NCBI GenBank assembly: GCA_022835495.1
Contig: BQOK01000001.1
Coordinates: 620,001 to 684,000, forward strand
Direction: 5' to 3'
From: Oscillospiraceae bacterium
GTDB lineage: Bacteria; Bacillota; Clostridia; Oscillospirales; Ruminococcaceae
Length of the DNA stretch: 64,000 nucleotides
In this document: positions 6,127 through 21,326 of the stretch, one piece after another
Layout of the letters: each line of letters begins with the position of its first letter
How positions within the stretch are numbered: position 1 is the first letter of the stretch
Notes under the pieces: model-generated
Databases searched by the model: none
Told to the model about the DNA's origin: nothing
Seen by the model: only the letters and a program-made list of their open reading frames with translations
Made by a program: the position numbers and the translations under genes

Positions 6127-8484
6127 ATGGACCGGAGTTTTTTGCAGGAGCTTGAAAACAGCCTTTACATTCACCGCCCGCTGCCGCTGCACACGGAGCG
6201 CTCGCTGGAAGCGGGCTTTGCCGCAAAGGCGGTGACGGACCGGAGGGTACTGTACGGCCCGGGCACGGCGGTGGCCGCGCCTGCGGCGGCGAATGAGGGA
6301 GAGGTGAGCGAGCGGGAGGGTGTGATCACCATCACCGCGCCCCTGCGCAGCGACCACTGGCCCGAGGGCGCGCCCGCCGACGGGGATTACTCGAACTTCG
6401 GCACGGCCAGCGTGCGGCTGCGCTTTGAGCCGCAGAGCTGGCAGGCGTTCCACCGCCTGCGCTTTTGGGCACGGCCGCGCATGCAGGGCGGGCGCATTGC
6501 GCACCTGAACGTATCGGTGAAGAACGTGGGGAAGATCCCGCTGCCGGACCCCTATTTCCGCGAGGGGGCCACTGTGTTTGACTTAAAGAACAACCAGTGG
6601 AACGAGTGCATCTGGGAGTTTGCCGCCATGCCCCGGGACGCGGTGTGCGAAGTGACCTTTTATGTGTTCCTGAGCGGGCGGGACCTGGCTGCGGGGCCGC
6701 AGCTGGTCTACGATTACCGGGACATTGCGCTGGAGGCCATTGAAAGCCCGGAGCACGAGCACGGCTGGCAGCCGCGAACCGGCGACATCACCCTTTCCAC
6801 CGTGGGCTACTGGCCCCGGGGCAGAAAAACGGCGGTGGCCAGCCTTGCCGCCGACCGCTTTGAGCTGGTGGACGCCGCCACCGGGCGCGCGGTGTTCTGC
6901 GGGCCGGTGCGGCAGGAGCAAAACCCGCGGGGCAGCTTTGCGGTGCTTGATTTTTCGGCCTGCGAGACCCCGGGCCGCTATTACCTGCGGGCGGGCGGGG
7001 CGCGCAGCGCAGAATTTGCCATTGAGGAGCAGCTGTGCAAAGAGAGCCTGTGGAAGGTGCTGAACTTCTTTTACTGCGAGCGCTGCGGCACCCCGGTGCA
7101 GGGCAGGCACGGCACCTGCCACCTGGACGTGACGGCCCGGCACGGCGGGGTGAGCCTGCCCTTTGCGGGCGGCTGGCACGACGCGGGCGATGTGTCGCAG
7201 CAGGCGGCGCAGACCGGCGAGGTGGTGCACGCCCTGTTTGAAAACGCCCAGCGCTGTAAGAACGACCGGCTTTTGTATCTGCGGCTGATGGAGGAGGCCC
7301 AGTGGGGGCTGGACTTTATCCTGCGCACCCGTTTTGGGGACGGCTTCCGGGCCACCAGCGCCGGCGCCACCCGTTTTACCAACGGCCTCGCGGGCGATTT
7401 TGACGACATTGAGGCCCGGGTGCACGACCACTCGTTTGAAAACTTTTTGTTTGCCGGGGTGGAGGCCTACGCCGCCTTCTGCCTGGCGGAATACGATCCG
7501 GGCCTGGCGGAGGGCAGCCTGGAGGCCGCCCGGCAGGATTTTGGGTTCGCGATGGAAAAGTTCAAAAGGACCGGCGTGGACCCGGCGCACATGTTCGAGC
7601 ACACCTATAACAGCGGCCTGTCGCAGTATTACGCGGTGATCGTGTGGGCGGCCAGCTGCCTTTACCAGGCCGGCGGGGCCGCAGAGCACGCCGCTGCGGC
7701 CCGCAAATATGCCCGAAAGCTGCTGGATTGCCAGGAGCAGGGGGCGGCGGGCATGGGGCTGACCGGCTTTTTTTACCGGGACGAGAGCCACAGGGTGATC
7801 GTGCACTTTAACCATCAATCCCGCGAACAGCAGTTCATGCAGGCGCTGGAGGCGCTGTGCCGCACCCAGCCGGAGGCAGCGGAGCGGCCGGCGTGGGAGC
7901 GGGCCATGCGGCTGTACGGCGGATACCTGAAGGCCATCGCCCCCGGCACCGCGCCCTACGGCATGCTGCCCGCCGGGGTGCACAGGACCGACGAAGCGCA
8001 GGACGCGGAAACCTTCCGCTGGCTGCACGTGGCAGCGGATTACGAGGCCGAGAGGCGGAACTACGAAGAGCAGCTGGCACAGGGCAGCCCGGTGGCGCCG
8101 GGCTACGTGCTGCGCAATTTCCCGGTGTGGTTCTCGTTCCGGGGCAACACCGCGGTGATGCTGGCCATGGGCAAGGCGGCCTCGCTGCTGGGGCGCTACT
8201 TCGGCGACGAGGAGCTGCTGCAGCTGGGGCGGGAGCAGCTGTACTGGATGTGGGGCAAAAACCCCTTCGGCCAGTCGCTGATTTACGGCGCGGGCAGCAA
8301 CTACTGCCGCCAGTACGCGGTGCTGTGCGGCGAGTGCGCGGGCGAGGTGCCCGTGGGGGTGGAAACGCTGGGCAACGAGGATGTGCCCTACTGGCCCCAA
8401 AACAACAACGCCACCTTCCGCGAGGTGTGGGTGGGGGCCGCCTGCCGGTGGCTGTGGCTCTGCGCCGATTACCTGGGCGAATAG
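6127..8484 (+). CDS. Glycoside hydrolase family 9 protein, cytoplasmic
   Basis: The 785-residue protein has an N-terminal beta-rich region (about 1-210), an Ig-like CelD_N domain (about 215-310), and a GH9 (alpha/alpha)6 catalytic domain. GGWHDAGD at about 348-355 holds the paired catalytic-base aspartates of GH9. A glutamate in FREVWVG near residue 765 sits where the general acid is expected. There is no signal peptide, so it should act inside the cell on imported oligosaccharides. GH9 includes endoglucanases, exo-glucosidases and exo-beta-glucosaminidases; the ROK kinase and NagB-like gene downstream make an exo-enzyme on glucose or glucosamine units attractive, but this is inference. First gene of the operon; AGGAG lies 10 bases before the ATG. 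Confidence 0.85.
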   Translation: MDRSFLQELENSLYIHRPLPLHTERSLEAGFAAKAVTDRRVLYGPGTAVAAPAAANEGEVSEREGVITITAPLRSDHWPEGAPADGDYSNFGTASVRLRFEPQSWQAFHRLRFWARPRMQGGRIAHLNVSVKNVGKIPLPDPYFREGATVFDLKNNQWNECIWEFAAMPRDAVCEVTFYVFLSGRDLAAGPQLVYDYRDIALEAIESPEHEHGWQPRTGDITLSTVGYWPRGRKTAVASLAADRFELVDAATGRAVFCGPVRQEQNPRGSFAVLDFSACETPGRYYLRAGGARSAEFAIEEQLCKESLWKVLNFFYCERCGTPVQGRHGTCHLDVTARHGGVSLPFAGGWHDAGDVSQQAAQTGEVVHALFENAQRCKNDRLLYLRLMEEAQWGLDFILRTRFGDGFRATSAGATRFTNGLAGDFDDIEARVHDHSFENFLFAGVEAYAAFCLAEYDPGLAEGSLEAARQDFGFAMEKFKRTGVDPAHMFEHTYNSGLSQYYAVIVWAASCLYQAGGAAEHAAAARKYARKLLDCQEQGAAGMGLTGFFYRDESHRVIVHFNHQSREQQFMQALEALCRTQPEAAERPAWERAMRLYGGYLKAIAPGTAPYGMLPAGVHRTDEAQDAETFRWLHVAADYEAERRNYEEQLAQGSPVAPGYVLRNFPVWFSFRGNTAVMLAMGKAASLLGRYFGDEELLQLGREQLYWMWGKNPFGQSLIYGAGSNYCRQYAVLCGECAGEVPVGVETLGNEDVPYWPQNNNATFREVWVGAACRWLWLCADYLGE

Positions 8485-8548
8485 GCCCGCCTGAACAAAT
8501 CGCTCTGCCGCGTGTGCGGCTGACAAAATTTTTGGAGGATTGAAAACC

Positions 8549-9841
8549 ATGAAAAAAGTACTTGCAATCGTTCTGGTCCTGGCACTGGCACTGTCCATGG
8601 CCGCCTGCGGCGGCAAGGGCGGCGCCGGGACCCCCAGCACCGCCGGACCCAATTCCGCCGGGGGAGCCTCGGGCGAACAGGTGACACTGTCTTTCTGGAC
8701 GCTGGCCCTGACCCCCACCTTTACCGACTTCATCCAGGGCCTGATCGACAAATATGAGGCTGAGAACCCCAACGTGAAGATCGACTGGCAGGACCTGCCC
8801 TGGGACGGCATCCAGGACAAATTCCTGACCCAGACCGCCGGCGGCAACCCGCCCGACGTGGTGAACATCTGGTCGCAGCTGGCGCTGACCTACGCCGGCA
8901 AGGGCGCGCTGCTGGACCTGGAGGCCAACGCCACCGAGGAGCAGAAGAGCATCTACCTGGAGGCCGCCTATGACTCCGCGCGCCTGGGCGACAGCGTTTA
9001 CGCCTTCCCCTGGTACGCCACCCCCAACATCTGCGTTTACAACAAGGACCTGCTGGCCGCGGGCGGCATTACCCAGGTGCCCGGCACCTTTGACGAGCTG
9101 TTTGACGCCGCCATCCCCTTTAAAAAGGCCACCGGCGCGAACCTGTTCACCCCGGCCACCATGTTCCACATGTTCTACGCCTACGGCATCGAGATGGTGA
9201 ACGAGGACGCCACCAAGGCCACCTTCAACACCCCAGAGGCCTTGGCCCTGGTCACCCGGCTGAAGGAACTGGGCGACGCCGGCGCCATCAACACCGCCCC
9301 CGGCGACTGGGACAACTGGGACGGCGACCGCCAGCTGTACGCCAACGAGATGCTGGCCATGGTGCTGGGCGGCCCGCAGACCGTGTCCCGCCTGCGGGAT
9401 GAATCCCCCGCCATCCTGGACAAATCCGGCGTGGCCTCCATGATCCTGGGCCCCGCAAACGTGTGCGGCGAGGCCATTATGAACCTGGTGGTTTCCAAAG
9501 CTTCCAAGCACCCCCAGGAGGCCATTGATTTTGCAAACTTTATCACCAACGATGAGAACCAGCTGGCCTTCTGCCACGAGGTCTCGATCTTCCCCACCAC
9601 CAAGGTGGCCTCGGCCGACCCCTTCTTCCAGAGCGACATGGAGAGCCTGGAGGGCCAGGCCAACTACTATGCTTCCCAGTCCGCCCAGAACGCCGTGGAT
9701 ATGACCCTGGGCATTGAAAAGGACGACGACGTGAAGCGCATCGTGGATAACATCATGGACAAGATCTTTGCCAGCGGCATGACCCCGCAGGAGGCCCTTG
9801 ACGCCGCCGAACAGGAGGTCAACACCCTGCTGGCCAGCTGA
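8549..9841 (+). CDS. Sugar ABC transporter substrate-binding lipoprotein
   Basis: The 430-residue protein is a family 1 extracellular solute-binding protein. It has a lipoprotein signal: MKKVLAIVLVLALALSM followed by the lipobox AAC, with cysteine near residue 20, then a flexible Gly/Ala/Ser linker. The mature part shows typical motifs (FIQGLIDKYEAENPNVKI, GGNPPDVVNIW). A TTG at 8540 in frame is rejected as start because it lies directly after the GGAGG site (8534-8538); the ATG at 8549 has normal spacing. With the two permeases downstream it forms an importer for an oligosaccharide. No ATPase gene is in the operon, so a shared MsmX-type ATPase elsewhere is presumed. Confidence 0.93.
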   Translation: MKKVLAIVLVLALALSMAACGGKGGAGTPSTAGPNSAGGASGEQVTLSFWTLALTPTFTDFIQGLIDKYEAENPNVKIDWQDLPWDGIQDKFLTQTAGGNPPDVVNIWSQLALTYAGKGALLDLEANATEEQKSIYLEAAYDSARLGDSVYAFPWYATPNICVYNKDLLAAGGITQVPGTFDELFDAAIPFKKATGANLFTPATMFHMFYAYGIEMVNEDATKATFNTPEALALVTRLKELGDAGAINTAPGDWDNWDGDRQLYANEMLAMVLGGPQTVSRLRDESPAILDKSGVASMILGPANVCGEAIMNLVVSKASKHPQEAIDFANFITNDENQLAFCHEVSIFPTTKVASADPFFQSDMESLEGQANYYASQSAQNAVDMTLGIEKDDDVKRIVDNIMDKIFASGMTPQEALDAAEQEVNTLLAS

Positions 9842-9969
9842 CACGCGCCATTTGGCGTTCGGATCACATCGGTGCGGGAAGCGGCCGGGAAACCGGCTGC
9901 TTCCCGCGCATGCCGGAACCGCATACGGCGGCCTGCTGGGGCCGCGGCGTACAAAAAAGAGGTGCACCG

Positions 9970-10866
9970 ATGAAACATATTCACAACGTGAAGCTGCGCA
10001 ACACCCTGATCGCCTGGTGCTTTATGGCGCCGGCCATGGCGATTTTGCTGGTGTTCGTTTTTTACCCCATCGTGTATTCCATCCCCCTGGCCTTTACCGA
10101 CTACTCGGTGTTCGGCGAGACCGCCTTTACCGGCCTGACCAACTTCAAGCGCCTGATCGCGGACCCGGATTTCTGGCTTGCGGTGAAAAACTCCTGCGTG
10201 TTCGTGCTGATGGTGCCCATTTTGCAGGTGCTGTCGATCGCGCTGGCGCTGCTGGTGAACCGCAAGCTGCGGGGCACCGCGGTCTTCCGGGTGCTGATCT
10301 ACCTGCCGGTGGTTACCTCGATGGTGGCCGTGGCCATCATCTGGAAATTCATCTTTGACCCGAACGGCCTTGTGAATGGCCTGCTGATGGAGTGGGGCTG
10401 GATTGAGGCGCCCATCCGCTTTTTGTCCAGCCGGGCGCTGGCGCTGCCCACCATGATGGCGATCACCATCTGGCAGGGGCTGGGCTATTACATGATGATC
10501 TATCTCTCGGCGCTGCAGCACTTCCCGGAGGAATTGATCGAGGCCTCGGTGCTGGACGGGGCCTCCGGCTGGCAGACCTTCTGGAAGGTGCGCATCCCGC
10601 TTTTGCAGCCCCAGATCTGGTTCTGCTCGATGGTTTCGACCATTGCGGCGCTGGGGATCTTCGACGTGGTGTTCACCATCACAAACGGCACAGGCGGGCC
10701 GGATAAATCGACCTATGTGATCAATTTCTATTCGTATTTCCAGGCCTTTAACAAATTCGACTTCGGCTATTCCGCCGCCATCGGCATTGTGCTGGCCCTG
10801 ATCACCCTGGTGTTCAACCTGGCGCTGAATGTGTACCAGAAGAAAGGGGGAGACGTTTATGATTAA
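9970..10866 (+). CDS. Sugar ABC transporter permease (MalF/UgpA type)
   Basis: The 298-residue membrane protein has about six transmembrane helices and the cytoplasmic EAA loop (LIEASVLDGASGWQTFWKVR) that docks the ATPase. An upstream in-frame extension to 9910 is rejected: the ATG at 9970 has an AAGAGGTG site before it and starts the normal family N-terminus. It overlaps the next permease by 8 bases. About 130 bases separate it from the binding-protein gene; no clear terminator is seen there. Confidence 0.93.
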   Translation: MKHIHNVKLRNTLIAWCFMAPAMAILLVFVFYPIVYSIPLAFTDYSVFGETAFTGLTNFKRLIADPDFWLAVKNSCVFVLMVPILQVLSIALALLVNRKLRGTAVFRVLIYLPVVTSMVAVAIIWKFIFDPNGLVNGLLMEWGWIEAPIRFLSSRALALPTMMAITIWQGLGYYMMIYLSALQHFPEELIEASVLDGASGWQTFWKVRIPLLQPQIWFCSMVSTIAALGIFDVVFTITNGTGGPDKSTYVINFYSYFQAFNKFDFGYSAAIGIVLALITLVFNLALNVYQKKGGDVYD

Positions 10867-11701
10867 CAGCCAAATGCGCTGTAAGCGCCTGCTGAAAAAG
10901 GGCACCAGCACCGCGTCCACCTACATTTTGCTGACCGTGACCGCGCTGATCTGCGCCGGGCCTTTTTTGTGGCTGCTGTCGACCTCGTTCAAATCGAACG
11001 AGAACGTTTACGCCCTGAACTTCTGGCCCCAGAATTTTTCGCTGGAAAGCTACATCGGCGTGTTCCAGCTGCTGGATGTGGGCCGTATGCTGGTTAACTC
11101 CTGCATCATTGCCGGGGGCGGCGTGCTGCTGAACGTACTTATGGCGGCGCTGTGCGCCTACCCGCTGGCCAAAATTGATTTTTACGGCAAAAAAATTGTG
11201 AACGGCGCGCTGATGGCCACCATGATCATTCCGGCCACGGTGGGGCTGGTGGTGAACTATATCACCATTCAGAACCTGCACCTGAACGGCAATTTCTGGG
11301 GGGTGATCCTGCCGAACTCGGTGAACGTGTTCAGCATCATCCTGCTGCGCCAAGCTTACCTGGCGGTGCCCAAAGAGCTGCTGGAGGCCGCCCGGATCGA
11401 CGGCGCGGGCGAGCTGCGCACCTGGTGGAGCATCCTTGTGCCGCAGATCGTGCCGTCGGTGGTGACCGTGGTCATTATGGACTTTATCAACAAGTGGAAC
11501 ATGTTCCTGTGGCCGCTGCTGATTTTGGATGTGGACCAGTATCCGGTGGCCACCGGCATGAAGCACATCAGCAACTCGTTCAATTACAAGTTCACAAATG
11601 TGGCGGCGGGTACCGTGCTGTCGGTGCTGCCGGTCATCATTCTGTTCCTGTGTTTCCAGAAAGAGTATGTGAACAACACGATCGGCGGCGTGAAGGGCTG
11701 A
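10859..11701 (+). CDS. Sugar ABC transporter permease (MalG/UgpE type)
   Basis: The 280-residue second permease starts at the ATG at 10859, inside the end of the first permease gene, preceded by AAAGGGGGAG; an upstream in-frame start at 10829 is rejected. It has about six transmembrane helices and an EAA loop (LLEAARIDGAGELRTWWSI). It pairs with the MalF-type protein to make the channel of the importer. Confidence 0.93.
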   Translation: MINSQMRCKRLLKKGTSTASTYILLTVTALICAGPFLWLLSTSFKSNENVYALNFWPQNFSLESYIGVFQLLDVGRMLVNSCIIAGGGVLLNVLMAALCAYPLAKIDFYGKKIVNGALMATMIIPATVGLVVNYITIQNLHLNGNFWGVILPNSVNVFSIILLRQAYLAVPKELLEAARIDGAGELRTWWSILVPQIVPSVVTVVIMDFINKWNMFLWPLLILDVDQYPVATGMKHISNSFNYKFTNVAAGTVLSVLPVIILFLCFQKEYVNNTIGGVKG

Positions 11702-11717
11702 GGCAAAGGAGGCTTTT

Positions 11718-12557
11718 ATGGGATATATCAATGGGATCGACCATGTGGACCTGCGGGTGCCGGACGTGGACGCGGCCGTGCGCTTTTACTGCGAGGGCCT
11801 GGGCCTTGCGCTGAAGCGCAGGGACGATTACAACGGCATTGCCGTGACGCCGGACGGGGTGATCCTGGAGCTTTCGCCGGAGGGAAGCGACCAGGGCGAC
11901 TCGAGCGGCATCACCCATGTTTGCTACAACACCTGGGATGTGGACAAAGCCTTTGCCCGCGCGCTGGAGTACGGCGCCGTGCCCTCCCGCGGGAGCGACC
12001 CGGAGCCCTATACCTACAAGGACCTGCGCATGGCTTTTGTGCGCGCGCCCAGCGGCGAGGAGATCGAATTCTGGTCGGTCATGCGGCCGGACGGCAGCTT
12101 TGGCGAGCCGGTGCGGGACCACAAATACATCAAGCATTTCGTGCATGTGGCGCTCACCGTGCCGGACATGCACGCCTGCGTGAAATTTTACGAGGGTTTG
12201 GGCGCAAGGCTGAAGATCGACTGGGAGTGGGGCTGCTCCATGACCCTGCCCGACGGGCGGGAATTTGAGCTGTTCACCGGCGGCGGGCGGGCCGAAAACG
12301 CCCAGGGCTACACCCACATGTGCCTGCTCACCGACGATGTGGACGCCGCGCTGCGGCGGGTGGTGGAGCTGGGGGGCCGGGTGGCCCACGAGGCTTACGA
12401 CTGGTCGAACCTGCGCATCGCCTTTGCGGAGGGGCTGGCGGGCGAGGTGATCGAGTTTTTCTCGATGTACGAGGACGGCAGGCAGCCGGACGTGTTTGAC
12501 GCGCCCCCCCAGCCGCTGCCGGACCTGTTTGCGCCGGCCGGGGAGGGGAACGCATGA
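11718..12557 (+). CDS. Tandem VOC (glyoxalase/dioxygenase-fold) protein
   Basis: The 279-residue protein has two vicinal-oxygen-chelate domains, about 1-125 (IDHVDLRVPDVDAAVRFYCEGLG) and about 138-260 (KHFVHVALTVPDMHACVKFYEGLG). VOC folds bind a divalent metal and act as isomerases, lyases, epimerases or dioxygenases; here metal-ligand candidates are the histidines of DHVD and HVAL and the acidic residues of EIEF and VIEFF. AAAGGAGG stands 5 bases before the ATG. It sits between the importer and the kinase, so a role in sugar breakdown is likely. The exact reaction is unknown. A second, single-domain VOC gene lies in the same operon. Confidence 0.85.
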   Translation: MGYINGIDHVDLRVPDVDAAVRFYCEGLGLALKRRDDYNGIAVTPDGVILELSPEGSDQGDSSGITHVCYNTWDVDKAFARALEYGAVPSRGSDPEPYTYKDLRMAFVRAPSGEEIEFWSVMRPDGSFGEPVRDHKYIKHFVHVALTVPDMHACVKFYEGLGARLKIDWEWGCSMTLPDGREFELFTGGGRAENAQGYTHMCLLTDDVDAALRRVVELGGRVAHEAYDWSNLRIAFAEGLAGEVIEFFSMYEDGRQPDVFDAPPQPLPDLFAPAGEGNA

Positions 12558-12766
12558 ACCGGCTGGATTACGCGCTGCTTTTGGAAGAGGTGGAAAAGGA
12601 GCTCGCCATGCCGGGGGGCAACTTTGAAGCGCTGTACGGCGGCGACCCCAAGACGCTGGAGCAGGCCCGGTATGTGGCGGCGGTGGCGCTGGTGGCGGCC
12701 GACCGGCTGTATTCACGGATCACAAAACAAGAATTCGAGCTGCGGGAAAAGGATGAACATTTTTGA
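12554..12766 (+). CDS. Small hypothetical protein of the sugar operon
   Basis: The 70-residue acidic, mostly helical protein has no recognised family. It starts inside the stop of the VOC gene (ATGA overlap), which argues that it is truly translated. No signal peptide or membrane segment is seen. Its tight coupling suggests a partner or regulator of a neighbouring enzyme; this is speculation. Confidence 0.65.
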   Translation: MNRLDYALLLEEVEKELAMPGGNFEALYGGDPKTLEQARYVAAVALVAADRLYSRITKQEFELREKDEHF

Positions 12767-12796
12767 CCCGGGAGCGACACAAACGAGGTGAATTGC

Positions 12797-13771
12797 TTGG
12801 AAAAGCAGACCAGAAAGACCTCTTTCCTCGGCGTTGACCTGGGCGGCACAAAGCTGCTGGTGGGGGAGATGGATGCGGGCGGCAGCCTGCTGGGCTATAA
12901 AAAATATCCGTCCGGGCCGCTCTCGCAGGCCGAGGCGATGAAGCTGATCACCGCCTGCGTGGACGATTACCTGGCCACGGCCCGGCCGGCCGGCGCCGGG
13001 GCCCCGGCGGCCCTGGGCCTGGGGCTGGTGGGCCGGATCGACGCGCGGCAGGGCGTGTGGCTGGGCATTGACCCCGCCCGGAACGAGGAGATCCCCGTGG
13101 CCCGGCTGCTGGGCGGGCGCTACGGGCTGCCCTGCTTTGCGGACAACGACGTGCGCAGCGCCACCAAGGCGGAAATGCTGTTCGGCCGCGGGCGCGGCAC
13201 CCGGCACATGGTGTATATCAACGTGGGCACCGGCATTGCGGCGGGCACCGTGAGCGACGGCAGGCTTATCTTCGGCAGCCATTTCAACGCGGGCGAGGTG
13301 GGGCACACGGCCTCGGGCATCGACCTGCGGGCCGACTGCGTGTGCGGCCGGCCGGACTGTGTGGAGAGTGTGGCCTCCGGCCTGGGGCTGGACAAATGCG
13401 CCCGCCTGCTGGCGCCGCGCTTTCCCGGCACGGCGCTGCACATCCCGCAAAACGGCGCCCGGGTGAGCGCAGCCGAGATTTTTGAGCGGTACGACGCCGA
13501 CCCGCTGTGCAAAACCCTTGCCGACAACGCCGCCGAGGGGCTTGCAAACCTGATTATGAACCTGGTGCGCATGAGCGACCCGGACACCATTGTGCTGGGC
13601 GGGGGGGTCATGACCGACGGTTTTTTGTACCGCAAGGTGCTGGAACGGCTGAACCCCTATACCATCCGCTTTGTGACGGGGGGCGTGGTGCTGACCGGGC
13701 TGGACCCGGCCTTTGTGGGGCTGATGGGCGCGTGCAGCAACGCCATCAAAGGAATGGAGGAGACGACATGA
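12797..13771 (+). CDS. ROK-family sugar kinase
   Basis: The 324-residue kinase has the ATP-binding FLGVDLGGTKLLVGEMD at the N-terminus, the GEVGHTASG segment with the zinc-binding histidine, and the ROK zinc cysteine cluster CVCGRPDCVES. ROK kinases phosphorylate glucose, glucosamine, N-acetylglucosamine or fructose at C6; some are repressors, but no helix-turn-helix is present. The start is uncertain: GTG at 12788 forms part of the GAGGTG site, whereas TTG at 12797 has 6-base spacing from it and is preferred. Its stop overlaps the NagB-like start. With that neighbour, a glucosamine or related amino-sugar kinase is possible. Confidence 0.9.
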   Translation: MEKQTRKTSFLGVDLGGTKLLVGEMDAGGSLLGYKKYPSGPLSQAEAMKLITACVDDYLATARPAGAGAPAALGLGLVGRIDARQGVWLGIDPARNEEIPVARLLGGRYGLPCFADNDVRSATKAEMLFGRGRGTRHMVYINVGTGIAAGTVSDGRLIFGSHFNAGEVGHTASGIDLRADCVCGRPDCVESVASGLGLDKCARLLAPRFPGTALHIPQNGARVSAAEIFERYDADPLCKTLADNAAEGLANLIMNLVRMSDPDTIVLGGGVMTDGFLYRKVLERLNPYTIRFVTGGVVLTGLDPAFVGLMGACSNAIKGMEETT

Positions 13772-14508
13772 AACTGACCATTGCCAAAAACGAGCGGGAA
13801 TTCGACGTGGCCGCCGCCTGGCGGATCATTGGGCAGATGCTGGCCGACCCGCGCTCGGTGATCGGCCTGTCGACCGGGGCGACCACCAAAAACATGCACG
13901 CCATTGTGAGCGATATCTACACCCGCTACCCTTTTGACACCAGCAAAGTGACCCTGTTCAATGTGGATGAGCTCACCAACCTGCCCCGCAGCTATGCGGG
14001 CTGCTGCTATACCATGATCGCAGAGCAGATCGCCCGGCCGCTGCAGATCCCGGAAGAGAACTTTATCATGCCCCCCACCATGGCGGAGGATTTTGAGGCC
14101 GAGTGCCGCAGCTTCCAAAAGGCGCTGGAGGCGCGGGGCGGCATTGATCTGCAGATGCTGGGCCTTGGCATGAACGGCCATGTGGGCATCAACCAGCCCG
14201 GCACCCCCTTTGGCAGCGAGACCTGGGTCTCGCCCATGGACCCCATCTTTGAAGCCCGGGTGCGCCGCGAGACCGGGGTGCCGCCGGAGCACGCGCTGGG
14301 CGGGCTGACCCTGGGCATCCGCACCATCATGCACGCAAAGCGCATTGTGCTGATCGCCAAGGGGGCGCACAAGGCCGGGATGGTGCGGGAGATGCTGAAG
14401 GGCCCGGTGACCGAGGCGATTCCCGCCTCGGTGCTGCAGCTGCACCCCAACTGTGAATTCCTGCTGGACGCCGACGCGGCGAAGTATGTGACCGACCTGG
14501 CGCAATAA
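13768..14508 (+). CDS. NagB-like glucosamine-6-phosphate isomerase/deaminase family protein
   Basis: The 246-residue protein has the NagB/6-phosphogluconolactonase fold: phosphate loop GLSTGATTKNMHAI, FNVDEL with Asp67, and LGLGMNGHVGINQPG. By spacing from E. coli NagB, Asp72 corresponds to Asp67 and His143 to His138, Asp141 is Asn136 (as in many Firmicutes enzymes), but the catalytic glutamate Glu148 is Gln143. That change makes ordinary GlcN6P deamination doubtful or altered. Coupled to the ROK gene by ATGA, so it likely acts on that kinase's product. It could instead be an isomerase for another sugar phosphate. Confidence 0.82.
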   Translation: MKLTIAKNEREFDVAAAWRIIGQMLADPRSVIGLSTGATTKNMHAIVSDIYTRYPFDTSKVTLFNVDELTNLPRSYAGCCYTMIAEQIARPLQIPEENFIMPPTMAEDFEAECRSFQKALEARGGIDLQMLGLGMNGHVGINQPGTPFGSETWVSPMDPIFEARVRRETGVPPEHALGGLTLGIRTIMHAKRIVLIAKGAHKAGMVREMLKGPVTEAIPASVLQLHPNCEFLLDADAAKYVTDLAQ

Positions 14509-14530
14509 GCGTTCAAAGGAGGAAAGCCCC

Positions 14531-15394
14531 GTGCTGAAAATAGGATTTGCGGATTATTACCTGGACAACTGGCACGCCAACAACTACCCGCAGTTTTTGC
14601 GGGATGTGATTGCCCGGGATGGGCTGGACGCCCGGATCACCCACGCCTACGGCATCTGCGACGCGCCCGGCGGCCTGACCACACAGGAATGGTGCCGCCA
14701 GCGGGAGATCGCCCCCGCCGGGAGCATGCGGCAGCTGGTGGACAGTGTGGACGCCATTCTGGTGATCGCGGCCGACAATTCGGCCTGGCACGAGCAGGTG
14801 TGCCGGCTGCCGCTTGAAAGCGGCAAGCCGGTGTTTGTGGATAAAACCTTTGCGCCGGACCTGGCGGCGGCAAAGCGGATGTTCGCGCTGGCGCACGCCC
14901 ACGGCACGCCGGTGTTTTCATCCTCGGCACAGCGGTACTGCCAGAGCATCCTGGACTACCAGGCCGCCCACCCGGAGCGGCCGAAATTTGTTTCGACCGT
15001 GGGGCCGCACACGCTGGAAAGCTATGCGGTGCATCAGCTGGAACCCATTGTGGCGCTGATGGGGCCGGGCATCCGGCGGCTCAAGGCCTTTGCGGTGGGT
15101 AGCGCCGTGACCCAGCTTATCCTGGATTACGGCGACGGCCGGCTGGCGAGCTTCATGCAGTCGCCCCAGCCCTACGCCGAGTTTAATTTCATGGTGTCGG
15201 ACGGGGAAACGGGGCAGCGCCTTTTGAGCGACGACCGGAATTTTTACCACAACCTGGCGCGGGTGATCCTGGACTTTTTGTTCACCGGAAAGCCCCCGGT
15301 GCCCGAGCGGGAAACACTGGAGATCGTGGCGGTGATCGAGACCGCGCTGACCGCCCGGCGGCACCCGGACGAGTGGTTCGATGTGAAGGGATAG
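14531..15394 (+). CDS. Gfo/Idh/MocA-like oxidoreductase
   Basis: The 287-residue protein begins at GTG with AAAGGAGG 8 bases upstream. The N-terminal half looks like a Rossmann fold of the Gfo/Idh/MocA type: a VDAILVIAADNS strand-loop and ESGKPVFVDKTFAPDL, the usual position of the conserved EKP-like lysine motif (here DKT). The usual GxGxxG at the start is weak (KIGFADYY), so cofactor binding is uncertain. These enzymes oxidise sugars or sugar derivatives, often at C3, with NAD(P). Next gene is ThuA-like, a pair also seen in ThuA/ThuB disaccharide oxidation. Confidence 0.75.
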   Translation: MLKIGFADYYLDNWHANNYPQFLRDVIARDGLDARITHAYGICDAPGGLTTQEWCRQREIAPAGSMRQLVDSVDAILVIAADNSAWHEQVCRLPLESGKPVFVDKTFAPDLAAAKRMFALAHAHGTPVFSSSAQRYCQSILDYQAAHPERPKFVSTVGPHTLESYAVHQLEPIVALMGPGIRRLKAFAVGSAVTQLILDYGDGRLASFMQSPQPYAEFNFMVSDGETGQRLLSDDRNFYHNLARVILDFLFTGKPPVPERETLEIVAVIETALTARRHPDEWFDVKG

Positions 15395-15404
15395 GGAGGG
15401 CGCA

Positions 15405-16220
15405 ATGGAAAAGATCAGGCTGCACTACCTGGTGGGCGACGTGCACATGGGCGGGCACGATGTGCACCGGGTGGCAAAAAACAACATGCGGCTGCTGGAG
15501 GCCGCCGGCGCTTTTAAGGTGACGGTGGTGTGCGACGGGCCGGGCCTGGGGGATATGGGCTTTGACGAATATTTTGACCGGGGGCTGCTGAACGGGTGCG
15601 ACGTGATCGTGTTCAACTGCGGCAACTACCGGTTCAACACGCCCGGCGAGCAGCGCCTGTTGGAAGAGGCGGTGGCGGGCGGCGCGGGCTTTGTGTTTTT
15701 GCACGGCGACCACCCCTGCTACTGGGTGGAGGCGGGCATGCAGCCCTGGCCGGAGCTGGAAAAGATGGCCATGCTGATGTGGCGCGAGCCCACCACCCAC
15801 GGCGATTACGGCGACCATCACGTTTCCATTGAGCTGCCGGACCACCCCATCACCCGGGGCCTTGCCGACTTTGACACCCGCGACGAGGTGTTTTGCACCA
15901 TGCAGAACATCCACGGCGTGCCCTTTACCGTGCTGGCCAGCGCCTATTCCGACCCGGCGGTGGTCTCGCGGCATGGGCTGCCCGGCACCGGCTGCCGGGA
16001 GCCGGTGGCGCTGGTGGGCAGCTATGGTAAGGGCCGCACCTACAACCAGGTGCTGGGGCATGTGTGGCCCTATTACACCGGCCACGGCCTGGGCGAAAAC
16101 ACCATGGCCAGCTTTGCGCCGCGCCCGTTCCGGCAGATGTTCGTGCGGGGCTGCGAGTGGGCGGCCACCGGCGGTGTGGAGCGCACCCTGGGGTTTGACG
16201 GCGAGGCCGTATTGCTTTAA
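15405..16220 (+). CDS. ThuA-like (trehalose utilisation) domain protein
   Basis: The 271-residue protein has a class I glutamine amidotransferase-like fold of the ThuA family: DVIVFNCGNYRF, a GGAGFVFLHGDHPCYW strand with histidine, then GDHHVSIELPDHPITRGLADF and a late SYGKGRTYNQVLGH. ThuA proteins take part in oxidation of disaccharides to 3-keto sugars and their later breakdown, but the precise chemistry is not settled. It starts 10 bases after the Gfo/Idh gene with GGGAGG before the ATG. Together they suggest redox chemistry on the imported glycoside. Confidence 0.82.
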   Translation: MEKIRLHYLVGDVHMGGHDVHRVAKNNMRLLEAAGAFKVTVVCDGPGLGDMGFDEYFDRGLLNGCDVIVFNCGNYRFNTPGEQRLLEEAVAGGAGFVFLHGDHPCYWVEAGMQPWPELEKMAMLMWREPTTHGDYGDHHVSIELPDHPITRGLADFDTRDEVFCTMQNIHGVPFTVLASAYSDPAVVSRHGLPGTGCREPVALVGSYGKGRTYNQVLGHVWPYYTGHGLGENTMASFAPRPFRQMFVRGCEWAATGGVERTLGFDGEAVLL

Positions 16221-16236
16221 AAACAAGGAGAAACCG

Positions 16237-17232
16237 ATGACGGATTACAGAGTTACGTTTATGGAAAAGGGCCGCGCCGCGCTGGTGCGCCACCCCTTTG
16301 ACGGCGGGGCCGCGGCGGGGGAGATCGTGGGAAAAAACCTTTTGTCGCTTATCTCCACAGGGTCGGAGCGGGGCGGCTTTACGCAGGATTTTCCGGCGGA
16401 CAGCTACCCCATGGAAACCGGCTCGTCCTCGATCGCGCAGGTGCTGGAGGTGGGCGAGGGGGTGACCGGGTTTGCCCCCGGCGATCTGTTTTACCACAAC
16501 GGGCACCACACCCGGTACGTTCGGCTGCCGCAGGGCGACGCCATCGCCGTGCCCGGCGGCGCAGAGCCGGAAAAGGTCCTGTTTGGGCGCTATGCCGCGG
16601 TGTCGATGACCTCGATCTACCACATGAAGGCCCGGGCGGTGGACAATATCATTGTGACCGGCCAGGGCATGGTGGGCGTGATGTGCGCCGCGGTGCTGCA
16701 GGCCTTTGGCTTTGAGGTGTACGCGGTGGACCCCTCGCCCGAGCGGCGCGCGGCCGCCCGCGAGGCGGGCATCCGGCGGGTGGGCGAGAGCCTGGCGGCG
16801 CTGGGCGCGGCCGAAAAGAGCTGCGGCGCGCACATGGAGTGCAGCGGCAACGAGAATGCACTGCGCGCCGCGCTGCCCTACCTGCGCCGCGGCGGCGAGA
16901 TCTTTCAGATCGGGGTGCCCTGGCACAAAAACAGCGATTGGGACGCGCACTCGCTGCTGTATGAAATGTTTTACGCCTATGTGAGCATCCAGGGCGGCTG
17001 GGAGTGGTCGATCCCGCTGAAATCCGACGAGTTCCACGCCCACAGCTCGTTTGAGCACATCCGCACGGCCATGCAGCTGATCGCGGACGGGAGGATCGTG
17101 ATCCCCGAGGCGATGTTTGAACTGCGCGACCCGCGGGAATGCAACGCGGTGTACACCGAGATCACCGTGCCCAGGATGCGCCCCACCAGCATGATCCTGG
17201 ACTGGCGAAAATTTGCGGAGGGAGAACAATGA
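16237..17232 (+). CDS. Medium-chain dehydrogenase/reductase (zinc-ADH-like)
   Basis: The 331-residue MDR protein starts at the ATG at 16237 after AAGGAG; a long in-frame extension upstream lies in the ThuA gene and is rejected. The N-terminal GroES-like half includes LSLISTGSERGGFT and VLEVGEGVTGFAPGDLF; the Rossmann half has VTGQGMVGVMCAAVLQAFGFEVYAVD. The usual catalytic-zinc Cys is replaced by the LISTGSER segment, as in the L-threonine/bacteriochlorophyllide-like branch of MDRs. It probably oxidises or reduces a sugar alcohol or keto-sugar with NAD(P). Its stop overlaps the next VOC gene by ATGA. Confidence 0.85.
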   Translation: MTDYRVTFMEKGRAALVRHPFDGGAAAGEIVGKNLLSLISTGSERGGFTQDFPADSYPMETGSSSIAQVLEVGEGVTGFAPGDLFYHNGHHTRYVRLPQGDAIAVPGGAEPEKVLFGRYAAVSMTSIYHMKARAVDNIIVTGQGMVGVMCAAVLQAFGFEVYAVDPSPERRAAAREAGIRRVGESLAALGAAEKSCGAHMECSGNENALRAALPYLRRGGEIFQIGVPWHKNSDWDAHSLLYEMFYAYVSIQGGWEWSIPLKSDEFHAHSSFEHIRTAMQLIADGRIVIPEAMFELRDPRECNAVYTEITVPRMRPTSMILDWRKFAEGEQ

Positions 17233-17657
17233 GCGCACAGGGCATCCATCACGTGGCCATCACCACGGCCCATTTGCAGGATACGCTGCGGCTGTACCGG
17301 CAGGGGCTGGGGTTTGAGGTGAAGCATATCTGGGGCCATGAGCAAAAGGTGTATATGCTGGATGCGGGCGGCGGGGCCTGTGTGGAGCTGTTCGAGGGAT
17401 ACACCGGGGAGCTGGACGCGCCCGGCGCGCCCAGGCAAAGCGGGGAGTGGATGCATCTTGCCCTGCGCACGGGCGACATTGCCGCCAGCTGGCAAAGGGC
17501 GCTGGACGCGGGCGCAAAGCCCAAGCTGCCGCCCACCTATGCCAACATCATGGAGGCGCAGCCCCGGCCGGTGTATATGTATTTTGCCTACCTGACCGGC
17601 TATGACGGCGAGGAGATTGAATTCATTCAGGAATTGGACGGACCGGTGGAAGAATGA
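17229..17657 (+). CDS. Single-domain VOC family protein
   Basis: The 142-residue protein has one vicinal-oxygen-chelate unit: GIHHVAITTAHLQDTLRLYR, a central CVELFEGY, then WMHLALRTGDI and EEIEFIQEL. Metal-ligand candidates are the His of HHVAIT, Glu of VELFE, His of MHLAL and Glu of EIEF, matching the glyoxalase-like H/E/H/E pattern. It is coupled by ATGA overlaps to the MDR gene before and the MFS gene after. Reaction unknown; an epimerase, isomerase or lyase step on a keto-sugar is plausible. Confidence 0.85.
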   Translation: MSAQGIHHVAITTAHLQDTLRLYRQGLGFEVKHIWGHEQKVYMLDAGGGACVELFEGYTGELDAPGAPRQSGEWMHLALRTGDIAASWQRALDAGAKPKLPPTYANIMEAQPRPVYMYFAYLTGYDGEEIEFIQELDGPVEE

Positions 17658-18970
17658 AAAAATTGGCTGAACTGTTTTACCCCGCGGCGCCGCCCACCGG
17701 GCGGCAGCAGCGGGCCAGCCAAAGGATATTGCTCGTGCAAGGCGCGCTTGCCAGTGTTTTGTTTGCGCTTGGCACGGGCAATTTTTTGGCGGGGTACCTG
17801 ACCACCCTGGGGGCGACGCCGGCCCAGATCGCACAGATCACGGCGATCCCCCAGCTGGGGTGCGTGCTGCAGCTGGCCGCGCCGCTGTTTTTTGAGCGCA
17901 GGGCCTACCGCAAGCTCTCGATTGTGAGCATGTGCTTTATCTTTCGGTTTTCGGTGGGGTTCACGGTGTTCGCGCCCTTTTTGTTCACGGCCCGGAACAG
18001 CCGGCTGCGGTTTGTGTTCGCACTGTATTTTGTGTCGTTTTTGGTGGCGGGCTTTGTGACCCCCGCGCTGAACCAATGGGTCATGCAGATCGCCCCCCAA
18101 AAGGGCCGGGGCCGGTACTTTGCCCTGAAGGACATCCTGTCGGTCACGGCCAATGCCCTGGTGGCGTTTTTGATGGGCCGCCAGCTGGACGCCCAGACCG
18201 CAAAGGGCACCCCGCTGACCGGCTACCTGGTGATCTACGGCTTCTGCATTGCGGCGGCGCTGGTGGACCTTTTGCTGATGAGCCTGATGCGCGAGCCCAA
18301 AAGCCCGGCCATGCCCAATATCCGCCCGGCCGACCTGCTGGCCCCGGTGCAGGACAGGCGCTTTCGGCCCCTTTTGGTGTTCGACCTGCTGGGGTACAGC
18401 GCCTCGATGTTCTCCTCCGGGTTTTCGTCGGTCTATCAGCTGGAGGTGCTGCACCTGAGCCACACCTTTATCACCTCGGTGGGCATGGTGAGCGCGGTGG
18501 TGGGCATGGCAAGCATCTGGCTGTGGGGCAAGGTGGCTGACCGGACCTACTGGACCAGCGTGATCCTGTGCACCCGGGGCATCAACGCGCTGTGCTTTTT
18601 TGGCTGGTGGCTGCTGCCGGTGGGGGCGGCGCCGGCGCTTGCGCCGGTGATTATGGCGCTGACCGCCGCGGGCGGCAGCGCGGCCGGCATGGCTGGGGTC
18701 AACCTGCAGTATGCCAGCTGCCCGCCCGCCGGCAAGACCACCTATCTGGGGGTCACGGCGGCCCTGGCCAGCCTTGTGGGCTATGGGGCGGTGCTGCTGG
18801 GCAGCGGGCTGCAGCAGCGCCTGGCCCCCGCCCTGGGCGGGCGCAGCATGGCGCTGCTGTTCGGGGTGAGCGGCGCGCTTTCGCTGGCGACCCTGTTGTA
18901 CGGCGCGGCGCGGCTGCCGCGCGCCCCCATTTTATACGAGGAGGCAAAAGAGGATGAAACGCAGCATTGA
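17654..18970 (+). CDS. MFS transporter
   Basis: The 438-residue protein has about 12 hydrophobic helices in two halves joined by a hydrophilic loop near residue 215 (MREPKSPAMPNIRPADLL). It is a major facilitator superfamily carrier; substrate is unclear. It starts in the stop of the VOC gene and runs 17 bases into GH3, so it is fully embedded in the operon. It may import a monomeric glycoside or export a product; the presence of an ABC importer in the same operon leaves either open. Confidence 0.85.
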   Translation: MKKLAELFYPAAPPTGRQQRASQRILLVQGALASVLFALGTGNFLAGYLTTLGATPAQIAQITAIPQLGCVLQLAAPLFFERRAYRKLSIVSMCFIFRFSVGFTVFAPFLFTARNSRLRFVFALYFVSFLVAGFVTPALNQWVMQIAPQKGRGRYFALKDILSVTANALVAFLMGRQLDAQTAKGTPLTGYLVIYGFCIAAALVDLLLMSLMREPKSPAMPNIRPADLLAPVQDRRFRPLLVFDLLGYSASMFSSGFSSVYQLEVLHLSHTFITSVGMVSAVVGMASIWLWGKVADRTYWTSVILCTRGINALCFFGWWLLPVGAAPALAPVIMALTAAGGSAAGMAGVNLQYASCPPAGKTTYLGVTAALASLVGYGAVLLGSGLQQRLAPALGGRSMALLFGVSGALSLATLLYGAARLPRAPILYEEAKEDETQH

Positions 18971-21221
18971 GCGGCTTGTGGCACAGATGACACTGGAAGA
19001 AAAGGCGGGCGTGTGCTCGGGCGGGGACTTTTGGCACCTGAAAGGGGTTGAGCGGCTGGGCATCCCGGCGGTCATGGTCTCGGACGGGCCGCACGGCCTG
19101 CGCAAGCAGGAACAGGAGGGGGACCACCTGGGCGTCAACGACAGCATCCGGGCGGTGTGCTTCCCCACGGCCTGCGCCACGGCGGCCTCGTTTGACACCG
19201 GGCTGCTGGAAACGCTGGGCCGGGTGCTGGGCGCGGAGTGCCGGGCACAGGGGGTGGGGGTGCTGCTGGGGCCCGCCCTGAACATCAAACGCAGCCCGCT
19301 GTGCGGGCGCAACTTTGAGTATTTTTCCGAGGACCCGTACCTTGCCGGCCAGTTGGCGGCAGCCCAGATCAAGGGGATACAGAGCCAGGGGGTGGGCGCT
19401 TCGCCCAAGCATTTTGCGGCCAACAACCAGGAATACCACCGCCTGACCTGCAGCGCCCAGATTGACCCCCGGACCCTGCGGGAGATCTATCTGGCGCCCT
19501 TTGAGGCGGCGGTAAAGGCTGCCCGCCCCTGGACGGTGATGTGCAGCTATAACAAGATTAACGGCGAACAGGTGAGCGAGAGCAAGGCCCTGCTCACCGA
19601 CATTCTGCGCGGGGAGTGGGGCTTTGACGGATACGTGATGAGCGATTGGGGCGCGGTGAACGACCGGGTGAAGGGGCTCTGCGCGGGGCTGGACCTGGAG
19701 ATGCCCGCCAGCGGCGGCAGCACCGACCGGCAGATCGCCGCCGCCGTGCGGGAGGGCCGGCTGCCCGAGGCCGTGCTGGACCGGGCGGTGGAGCGCATTC
19801 TGGACGTGATCTTCCGCTATGCGGACGGGCAGGGGGCGGCGGAATTTGACCTGCAGGCCCACCACGAGCTGGCGGTGCGCATGGCGCGGGAGTGCGCGGT
19901 GCTGCTGAAAAACGAGGGCGGCGTGCTGCCGCTGGGCCAAAGGACCCGGGTGGCGTTCGTGGGGGAATTTGCGCAAAAACCGCGCTTTCAGGGGGGCGGG
20001 TCCTCGCACATCAACGCATTCCGGGCCGAGAGCGCCTGGGAGGCAGCCCGGGGGCGGTACGAGGTGCAATACGCCAAGGGCTTTTCGGCCGGGGGCGACG
20101 AGGCGGACGAGGCGCTGATGCGCGAGGCGGTGGAGCTTGCCGCTGGCTGCGGGGCGGCGGTGGTGTTTGCCGGCCTGCCCGACAGCTTTGAGTGCGAGGG
20201 CTACGACCGCAGCCACATGCGCCTGCCCGGGTGCCAGAACGAATTGATCCGGCGCGTGGCGGCCGTGCAGCCCAACACGGTGGTGGTGCTGCATAACGGC
20301 AGCCCGGTGGAACTGCCCTGGGCGGACGAAGTGCCGGCCATTCTGGAGCTGTATCTGGCGGGGCAGGGGGCGGGGCGGGCCGCGGTGGAGCTGCTGTTCG
20401 GCGAGGCGAACCCCTGCGGCAAGCTGGCCGAGACCTTTCCGCTGCGGGTGCAGGACAACCCCTCGTACCTGAACTTCCCCGGCAACGGGGACACGGTGGA
20501 ATACCGCGAAGGGATGTTTGTGGGCTACCGGTATTACGATAAAAAAGAGGCGCCGGTGCGCTTTGCCTTTGGGCACGGCCTCTCTTACACCAGCTTTGCC
20601 TACAGCGGCCTGCGGGCCGACAAAACCGCCGTGCGGGACGACGAGCCTGTTACCGTGCGGCTGGAGGTAACCAACACCGGCGCCCGGGCGGGCAAGGAGA
20701 TCGTGCAGCTTTATGTGGCGGACTGCACCGGCGCTGAGGTGAGGCCGGAAAAGGAATTAAAGGGGTTTGTTAAGCTGGAACTGGAGCCCGGCGAGACAAA
20801 GACCGCGGAATTTGTGCTGGACCGGCGCAGCTTTGCCTGGTACGACCCGCAGCGGGGCAGCTGGACCTGCGCTTCGGGCCGGTATGGGCTGCTGGCGGGG
20901 GCTTCGTCGCGGGATATCCGCCAACGCGTGGAGATCGAGCTGACCTGCACCGACCCAAAGCCTTATGTGGTGGACGCCAACAGCCGGTACGACGACCTGC
21001 TGGCCCAACCCGCGCTGCGCGAATTTATGCTGCGGCTGCTGGAAAAGGAGTACCCGCCCGCGCCGCCGGCCGAAAGCGGCGCTGCGCGGGCGGCCATTAC
21101 CCCCGAGATGCAGCAGCGAATGGACCGGGAGGCGCCGCTGCGGAGCCTGCGCAGCTTCAAGGGCTACACCCAGGAGCAGCTGGACGGGCTGATCGCCCGG
21201 CTGAACGCCATGCTGCGCTGA
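18954..21221 (+). CDS. Glycoside hydrolase family 3 beta-glucosidase
   Basis: The 755-residue enzyme has the GH3 N-terminal (beta/alpha)8 domain with KHFAANNQEYHR and the nucleophile Asp231 in YVMSDWGAV, the second alpha/beta sandwich domain (from about 300, CAVLLKNEGGVLPLG), and a C-terminal fibronectin III-like domain (about 560-630, VTNTGARAGKEIVQLYV). The N-terminus has no signal peptide, so it acts inside the cell. It removes non-reducing beta-linked sugars, most often glucose. Last gene of the operon, followed by a strong terminator. Confidence 0.95.
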   Translation: MKRSIERLVAQMTLEEKAGVCSGGDFWHLKGVERLGIPAVMVSDGPHGLRKQEQEGDHLGVNDSIRAVCFPTACATAASFDTGLLETLGRVLGAECRAQGVGVLLGPALNIKRSPLCGRNFEYFSEDPYLAGQLAAAQIKGIQSQGVGASPKHFAANNQEYHRLTCSAQIDPRTLREIYLAPFEAAVKAARPWTVMCSYNKINGEQVSESKALLTDILRGEWGFDGYVMSDWGAVNDRVKGLCAGLDLEMPASGGSTDRQIAAAVREGRLPEAVLDRAVERILDVIFRYADGQGAAEFDLQAHHELAVRMARECAVLLKNEGGVLPLGQRTRVAFVGEFAQKPRFQGGGSSHINAFRAESAWEAARGRYEVQYAKGFSAGGDEADEALMREAVELAAGCGAAVVFAGLPDSFECEGYDRSHMRLPGCQNELIRRVAAVQPNTVVVLHNGSPVELPWADEVPAILELYLAGQGAGRAAVELLFGEANPCGKLAETFPLRVQDNPSYLNFPGNGDTVEYREGMFVGYRYYDKKEAPVRFAFGHGLSYTSFAYSGLRADKTAVRDDEPVTVRLEVTNTGARAGKEIVQLYVADCTGAEVRPEKELKGFVKLELEPGETKTAEFVLDRRSFAWYDPQRGSWTCASGRYGLLAGASSRDIRQRVEIELTCTDPKPYVVDANSRYDDLLAQPALREFMLRLLEKEYPPAPPAESGAARAAITPEMQQRMDREAPLRSLRSFKGYTQEQLDGLIARLNAMLR

Positions 21222-21236
21222 AAAAGCGGAACGCAA

Positions 21237-21273
21237 AAAGGGCCCCGCCTGTTTTAAACAGGCGGGGCCCTTT
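21237..21273. terminator. Terminator between GH3 and bioY, serving both strands
   Basis: A 17-bp inverted repeat (arms 21237-21253 and 21257-21273) is followed by five T on the minus strand and three on the plus strand. It ends bioY transcription and probably the sugar operon. Its core GGGCCCCGCCTGTT is the same as in the terminator at 4755-4796. Confidence 0.85.
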
Positions 21274-21326
21274 CCGGTGGAAAACCTGCCGCCCCCCCAA
21301 AAAGCTGCGGCAGCGGGGCCGGGCGC

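Follow-up and report, generated by a model that had tools for sequence, protein, structure and literature searches.

What kind of pathway is encoded by an operon in which glycosidases and a sugar importer are combined with genes of dehydrogenase, ThuA, and VOC families? We address this question for the locus at positions 6127-21221 of a 64,000-nucleotide stretch of an Oscillospiraceae genome (hereafter the window). The locus is filled by 14 open reading frames (ORFs), all on the plus strand, that encode GH9 and GH3 glycosidases, an ABC substrate-binding lipoprotein (SBP) with two permeases (P1 and P2), two VOC proteins, a ROK kinase, a NagB-like protein, a Gfo/Idh-fold protein (hereafter Gfo-star), a ThuA-like protein, an MDR-type dehydrogenase, an MFS carrier, and a 70-residue protein (s70). 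This is the gene content that was originally predicted, and Pfam agrees with the named families, with no match for s70. We propose, with a probability of about one half, that the operon is controlled by LacI and serves the use of a small beta-linked hexosamine glycoside, with a non-classical step carried out by Gfo-star, ThuA, and s70.

A ThuA-based scan of genome contigs, in which exact peptide patterns were used so that the counts are lower bounds, revealed 17 loci: (i) 13 loci (L002-L014) with a close relative of the window ThuA and more of the operon around it, (ii) three loci (L016-L018) with a distant ThuA only, and (iii) a ThuA fragment of 70% identity (L015), in whose genome Gfo-star was not found. 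The relatives belong to Clostridia (Lachnospiraceae, Gemmiger, Robinsoniella, Herbinix, and others), an 'uncultured bacterium' (L009), and a Treponema bin (L010). At 1e-20, the Gfo alignment matched four of 397 genomes in the family to which Robinsoniella belongs: Robinsoniella itself (G450), G722, G615, and the more distantly related G510. The close Gfo-star clade comprises 16 genomes: the window genome (G000), the genomes of L002-L014, G722, and G615. GH9, s70, Gfo-star, and the canonical Gfo/Idh partner described below were searched in whole genomes, and the counts for ThuA, ROK, LacI, deaminase, MDR, VOC, MFS, GH3, and GH20 refer to the regions read. Genes of the relatives are longest-ORF calls with approximate starts, and most relatives are contigs of metagenome-assembled genomes; because those of L002, L003, L010, and L012 are cut at the contig end, absences in these four are weak.

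GH9 was found in 15 of the 16 genomes (the exception is G456), s70 in 14 (exceptions G454 and G722; one stop codon was counted in two matches), ThuA in 15, and ROK in 13. In G722, a PF04909 amidohydrolase adjoins Gfo-star where the others have ThuA. All 15 GH9-bearing genomes contain one deaminase fold, either NagB-like (11) or double-SIS (4), and never both. The core of the operon is thus GH9, a kinase, a phospho-amino-sugar deaminase, Gfo-star, ThuA, and s70; since these proteins co-occur on contigs from other genomes, where they share 31-85% identity with their window counterparts, their association is beyond chance. The original prediction proposed to search the gene order across Clostridia; the core is carried by 15 other genomes, whereas the MDR (6 of 16), VOC1 (5), VOC2 (4), and MFS (3) genes are in a minority and GH3 is found, among the regions read, in the window alone, so that GH3 was rejected as a pathway member. 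In the Gemmiger locus (L003, 3581-9398), MFS is followed, in the place of GH3, by a GH94-like protein of 899 amino acids and a 1041-amino-acid protein without a Pfam match. The core divides into two modules, since s70-Gfo-star (with ThuA) and NagB-GH9 occupy separate loci in G448 and G452; a GH38 gene lies nearby in G448 and a GH2 gene in G452.

The most unusual component of the core is Gfo-star. Its AlphaFold2 model, with a predicted local distance difference test (pLDDT) score of 92.9, consists of a Rossmann domain and a C-terminal alpha/beta domain, and its best 50 Foldseek matches (E 4e-16 to 7e-14, template modelling score to the query 0.63-0.82) are Gfo/Idh-type dehydrogenases and biliverdin reductase. 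In place of the glycine-rich turn after the first strand, Gfo-star has the loop ADYYLDNWHAN, and the NAD fingerprint GxGxx(G/A) is present in none of the 36 readable homologues, drawn from both the close clade and its wider family (n = 37; L043 was dropped for an over-long start with an unreadable N-terminus, and L010 and L012, whose ORFs were not called, were left out, although the alignment row of L010 has the same invariant loop residues). Canonical Gfo/Idh genes in the same loci carry the fingerprint in 21 of 23 cases, the exceptions being one GxGxxS and one truncated gene. A role of Gfo-star as a normal dehydrogenase was rejected because the fingerprint is missing, although this does not prove that NAD cannot bind. 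The active-site lysine motif DKTF(A/S) was found in all 37 homologues; in Gfo/Idh proteins, the lysine of the EKP-type motif is catalytic. Because the lysine is kept and the usual NAD site is missing, the sequences make acid-base chemistry (elimination, hydration, or isomerisation) or the need for a partner more likely for Gfo-star than classical dehydrogenation.

The Gfo alignment at 1e-20 also matches 35 of the 391 genomes of the class, some of them partially, and these represent a wider family, of which 20 genomes were read (L079-L098; L080 and L081 are near-identical). A canonical Gfo/Idh gene lies directly upstream of the wider Gfo-star gene in 14 loci (gap of -38 to +21 bp), directly downstream in one, and one gene away in one, whereas in the other four no canonical gene was found on that strand. 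Of the 16 canonical partners one is truncated, and the 15 whose N-terminal half is complete all have the motifs GxGxIA and CEKP. Since a canonical Gfo/Idh adjoins most of its members, the wider family seems to supply half of a two-protein system. The two-gene unit is an observation in its own right, as it may be a sugar enzyme system of two proteins that is general in Clostridia. Somewhat short of even odds, we put forward a more specific proposal: a Clostridia-wide Gfo/Idh branch that lost its NAD site may have become a redox-free sugar enzyme, elsewhere half of a pair with canonical dehydrogenases, and here, partnerless and accompanied by ThuA and s70, may perform a non-oxidative step on a substituted amino-sugar glycoside.

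In the original prediction, a Gfo/Idh-ThuA pair would oxidise a glycoside to a 3-keto sugar, and the VOC and MDR enzymes could continue this chemistry. The best surviving alternative, which we nevertheless consider unlikely, is a pathway of this type, in which Gfo-star (holding NAD in an unusual way) or MDR would oxidise C3, the VOC or ThuA proteins would eliminate and hydrate, and the freed sugar would be phosphorylated. In its favor, the wider Gfo-star directly adjoins a canonical Gfo/Idh in 15 of the 20 loci read, a PF01261 TIM-barrel gene follows one relative (L047), and MDR is the only dehydrogenase-domain protein of the operon with an intact fingerprint (GQGMVG, residue 142). The VOC ligand sets are also largely intact. 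VOC1 and VOC2 were both found as described, except that VOC1 holds two VOC domains. Its H-E-H-E sets (window residues 9/51/67/117 and 143/184/200/246) were matched by motif at all eight positions in three of five proteins, L043 and L109 missing one each, and the set of VOC2 (8/53/76/131) is conserved in three of three. H-E-H-E is the metal-ligand pattern of glyoxalase I, and the sets fit a putative enediolate chemistry. On the other side, PF01261 and DUF1080 are missing among the Pfam matches of the 14 proteins, 10 of the 16 genomes yielded no MDR in the regions read, and a homologue of the canonical partner was not found at 1e-30 in the whole genomes of G000, G447, G449, G450, G451, and G615. 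Since the fingerprint is missing and the partner was not found in the window genome, 3-keto oxidation by Gfo-star is unsupported. The VOC, MDR, and MFS genes, present in the regions of only 3-6 of the 16 genomes, form a variable extension rather than the core, and the VOC and MDR genes are perhaps intended for a particular aglycone.

In the rhizobial thuEFGKAB operon, ThuA is accompanied by ThuB, a Gfo/Idh dehydrogenase, and the pathway involves 3-keto disaccharides. Both operons combine an ABC sugar importer, ThuA, and a Gfo/Idh-fold partner, but here the partner is without the NAD fingerprint and GH9, ROK, NagB-like, s70, and VOC genes are added; no canonical NAD-dependent partner of the ThuB type was found in the operon, in which Gfo-star stands alone. 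The 3-keto pathways for levoglucosan (PMC7676230) and for O- and C-glycosides (PMC10628242) resemble the window operon in combining Gfo/Idh folds with metal enzymes for a glycoside, but they begin with a dehydrogenase and also employ a lyase. The O-/C-glycoside eliminases are manganese TIM barrels (PMC10628242); in this respect the systems differ, since no PF01261 TIM-barrel protein is encoded in the window operon.

An amino sugar is our best guess for the substrate class, because two deaminase folds and two kinase folds alternate beside GH9 and a GH20 gene is near in three genomes (L005 and L014 by Pfam, L007 by BLAST). The best PDB match of the NagB-like protein is the glucosamine 6-phosphate (GlcN-6-P) deaminase 2bkv (2e-34), and the double-SIS protein that replaces it in four genomes is related to GlmS, GlmD, and NagB-II (the SIS type was established for L005, L040, and L009, and by tblastn for G455). 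Both folds include known GlcN-6-P deaminases. As two unrelated folds alternate at one place, they point to a shared reaction, presumably deamination and isomerisation of a hexosamine 6-phosphate. The phosphorylation arm formed by ROK and the NagB-like protein is thus supported, and the substrate could be an amino sugar; chitosan oligomers were originally proposed as a test. Adjacent genes for a kinase and a 6-phosphate deaminase, with interchange of NagB-like and SIS proteins, also resemble the known amino-sugar kinase and NagB/GlmD routes; what differs is the clade of the deaminase (with NQPG in its loop, see below) and the coupling to Gfo-star, ThuA, and s70.

A plain beta-glucoside operon would explain some of these genes differently: GH9 and GH3 would release glucose, ROK would be a glucokinase, and the NagB-like protein would be of the 6-phosphogluconolactonase type or regulatory. 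The best NCBIfam score of ROK indeed belongs to the glucokinase subfamily, although below its cut-off, GH9 is nearest to CelD, and the domain set of GH3 is usual in beta-glucosidases. This explanation appears improbable, since the NagB-like protein scores 47.5 bits for 6-phosphogluconolactonase versus 179 for GlcN-6-P deaminase, it is swapped for the double-SIS fold of amino-sugar isomerases and deaminases, and no GH3 turned up elsewhere among the loci read.

ThuA matches PF06283 with 53.6 bits (cut-off 33.4), and its residues H100, C105, H132, D134, H147, E161, C164, R189, E199, H219, H227, and E231 are invariant; a PDB search retrieved only 4e5v, a 'putative ThuA-like protein'. The model of s70 has three helices (pLDDT 91.2, predicted template modelling score 0.65), with no PDB fold match at E<=0.001 (six matches, best E 4.6). 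The clade is rare: among 391 genomes of the class, s70 was found only in the window's own genome, it was not found in six genomes holding only the wider Gfo-star family, and 60 other near relatives gave one weak ThuA match. The least probable explanation, a non-enzymatic sensor or scaffold complex of Gfo-star, ThuA, and s70, would account for the missing fingerprint and the small helical s70, but it is opposed by the DKTF(A/S) lysine motif in 37 of 37 homologues, the many invariant His, Cys, Asp, and Glu residues of ThuA, and the steady linkage of the three proteins to catabolic enzymes.

Separability of the modules is also seen in the wider distribution of GH9. This protein has its own N-terminal stretch of ~220 amino acids, followed by CelD_N and the GH9 domain, and residues H351-D352-A353-G354-D355 and E766 are invariant in 12 of 12 proteins. 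GH9 matches above 1000 bits were found in G000 only among the 391 genomes of the class, and in 10 of 270 Lachnospiraceae genomes. Gfo-star was not found at 1e-20 in seven of these 10 (one such sister genome, G505, has one weak partial match, 4e-15), which rules out a strict one-to-one link between GH9 and Gfo-star. Five of the seven sister GH9 loci contain at least one D-amino-acid-type gene, encoding a D-serine dehydratase-like/alanine racemase-fold protein, Amidohydro_3 (labelled 'N-acyl-D-amino-acid deacylase type' by resemblance only), or RidA, and three contain a mannosidase-type GH2. The D-amino-acid module was assigned by Pfam in L131 only, GH2 by Pfam in L132 and L134, and the rest by BLAST; L132 has only RidA and GH2, and L129 and L130 have none of the module. 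Its proteins had no match among the called ORFs of the core loci, a set that does not include the GH9-NagB locus of G452 (L108, with GH2). Since all seven sister genomes are without Gfo-star at 1e-20 and five carry another module, Gfo-star, ThuA, and s70 form a separable unit, and GH9, the kinase, and the deaminase look like a base to which varied processing modules attach. Two additional observations concern these loci. In L131-L135, the genes beside the sister GH9 are varying subsets of D-serine dehydratase-like, Amidohydro_3, RidA, GH2, and YheO-type regulator genes, linking hexosaminide breakdown with D-amino-acid enzymes. In G451, contig C41 (L110 and beyond) encodes one more full-length member of this GH9 clade, together with two additional GH9 fragments.

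The upstream region contains a divergent LacI-family gene and palindromic operator-like sites at the promoter, the combination by which a putative LacI-regulated ABC sugar operon is recognized. The pattern TGWAAACGTTTWCA is matched with one mismatch each at 5943-5956 and 6039-6052; with at most two mismatches, four sites were found in the whole 64-kb window versus 0.19 expected, whereas promoter-like sites as such are near chance (four found, 2.2 expected). A LacI homologue, 47-83% identical, is present in 11 of the 15 other genomes (12 of 16 with the window). In eight of the 12 LacI-side intergenic regions of the window and relatives, the top-scoring site attains 13 or 14 of 14, which never happened in 300 shuffles of each region that preserved base composition only; the consensus was derived from three of the 12 regions, so that only five of the eight matches are independent. 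No such site was found in the LacI-side intergenic regions of G449, G453, G454, and G455. The operators support a single regulated unit. This unit is less tightly packed than originally predicted, where it was called fully coupled with most neighbours overlapping: for the chosen starts, only 6 of 13 junctions overlap (P1/P2 by 8 bp, MFS/GH3 by 17 bp, and VOC1/s70, ROK/NagB, MDR/VOC2, and VOC2/MFS by 4 bp each), and the other seven have gaps of 10-128 bp. The 128-bp gap between SBP and P1 contains a hairpin of high stability (-69.7 kcal/mol and z -4.4 for 126 nt folded), as is usual for processed ABC operons. Two more operator-like palindromes, with two mismatches each, are located at 49540-49553 and 49739-49752, upstream of a gene on the minus strand (47835-49520) that was named GH13-like by eye; this is likely a second LacI-regulated sugar locus.

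From protein families and gene context, we infer the following order of reactions. The ABC system would import a beta-linked hexosamine glycoside, from which cytoplasmic GH9 would remove the terminal residue, probably glucosamine. The freed sugar would be phosphorylated by the ROK kinase, and the NagB-like protein would deaminate and isomerise the 6-phosphate, directing its carbon into glycolysis. The module of Gfo-star, ThuA, and s70 would separately handle the remaining molecule or its substituent, an activity that MDR and the VOC proteins may extend in the window genome and a few others. Intracellular breakdown, as originally predicted, agrees with the N-terminal segments: a hydrophobic, signal-peptide-like one is present in SBP, but none was seen in GH9 or GH3. 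Overall, the original prediction is mostly right in its observation and half right in its mechanism.

Several findings weigh against the amino-sugar operon with a redox-free step. The window GH9 reaches 97 bits against the endoglucanase CelD, more than the 63.5 and 44 bits against 3h7l and 5dgq, two exo-GH9 proteins of the Vibrio type, the latter presumably the Photobacterium enzyme, so that amino-sugar specificity is not shown by GH9 itself. The NagB-like protein falls short of all NCBIfam cut-offs (179.4 vs 326 for NF001684 and 138.3 vs 236.9 for TIGR00502); in its loop, the NGH of NGHxGxNEPG is kept and NEPG is replaced by NQPG in 10 of 10 readable distinct clade members, NEPG being present in two aligned PDB deaminases and in a divergent paralogue of L002. 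Among the seven sister GH9 loci, a NagB-like or SIS gene occurs in three and a kinase in four (ROK in two and BadF-type in two; BadF-type proteins include known GlcN and GlcNAc kinases). The remodelled loop of Gfo-star could hold NAD, and 10 of the 16 genomes have some homologue of the canonical partner elsewhere, with 46-66% identity in G448, G455, and G456. As for transcription, 27 terminator-like sites versus 14 expected lie in the region, several of them intragenic, so one transcript is not shown, and the 15-bp hairpin after GH3 has a short T-run on the plus strand, the terminator scan listing the minus strand only. Finally, even for the exo-GH9 clade, the available part of the published analysis identifies no residue explaining GlcN preference (PMC6096475).

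The same source describes an exo-acting GH9 glucosaminidase in chito-oligosaccharide catabolism of Vibrio and Photobacterium, with Asp140 and Asp144 as the aspartates of VC0615 (PMC6096475). The window GH9 possibly acts likewise on GlcN-beta-X; it differs from these enzymes in having its aspartates three apart (DAGD) and in its higher score for CelD. No description of such a gene set was found in the titles and abstracts of the open-access papers retrieved, which is weak evidence of novelty. In summary, this is a patchily distributed catabolic operon that combines known components in a new way, with Gfo-star as the real surprise. The sequences establish the gene content, its conservation, the missing fingerprint, the separability of the modules, and the operator-like sites; the substrate, the reaction order, and what Gfo-star catalyses are deductions. 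The Gfo-star of Treponema is 62% identical to that of the window, that of the clostridium Herbinix 41%, and this closer similarity suggests a putative lateral transfer of Gfo-star involving Treponema, although the L010 contig (9.8 kb) is possibly misbinned.

Table 1. Genes and predicted regulatory sites of the operon region (window coordinates)
Feature	Position	Strand	Evidence or remarks
LacI-family regulator	4824..5882	-	PF00356, PF13377; divergent from operon
LacI-type operator-like site AGTAAACGTTTTCA	5943..5956		inside divergent promoter-like site
LacI-type operator-like site TGAAAAGGTTTTCA	6039..6052		between TTGCAA (6033) and TATACT (ends 6061)
GH9	6127..8484	+	PF02927 (CelD_N), PF00759
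ABC substrate-binding lipoprotein (SBP)	8549..9841	+	PF13416, PF01547
ABC permease 1 (P1)	9970..10866	+	PF00528
ABC permease 2 (P2)	10859..11701	+	PF00528
VOC1, two VOC domains	11718..12557	+	PF00903, PF13669
s70, 70 residues, predicted all-helical	12554..12766	+	no Pfam or NCBIfam match
ROK sugar kinase	12788..13771	+	PF00480
NagB-like sugar-6-phosphate deaminase/isomerase	13768..14508	+	PF01182; best PDB match 2bkv
Gfo-star, Gfo/Idh-fold protein	14531..15394	+	AlphaFold2 model, Foldseek; NAD fingerprint missing
ThuA-like protein	15405..16220	+	PF06283; PDB 4e5v
MDR-type dehydrogenase	16237..17232	+	PF00107; PF08240 (GroES-like) below cut-off
VOC2, single VOC domain	17229..17657	+	PF00903
MFS carrier	17654..18970	+	PF07690
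GH3 glycosidase	18954..21221	+	PF00933, PF01915, PF14310
Hairpin after GH3, possible terminator	21239..21271	+	stretch 21222-21280: -37.9 kcal/mol, z -5.5

Other features of the window lie outside the operon. A BioY biotin transporter subunit and a biotin protein ligase are encoded at 21327-22882 on the minus strand, convergent with the operon. The stretch 29863-31853 has a G+C content of 41%, versus 55-70% elsewhere in the window, and looks like a recent insertion; its minus-strand frames were named by eye as a GNAT-like acetyltransferase and a PEBP-like protein. A ribosomal protein L10 leader RNA (RF00557, 52.5 bits) was found at 39096-39245 on the plus strand.

Genes of the Gfo/Idh family are routinely annotated as NAD-dependent dehydrogenases. 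Since a Clostridia family keeps the fold without the NAD fingerprint, pathway predictions that assume oxidation by Gfo/Idh-fold proteins may be wrong. Gfo-star, ThuA, and s70 constitute a defined, separable module, and the GH9-bearing genomes without Gfo-star provide a natural comparison set, which makes the function of ThuA directly testable.

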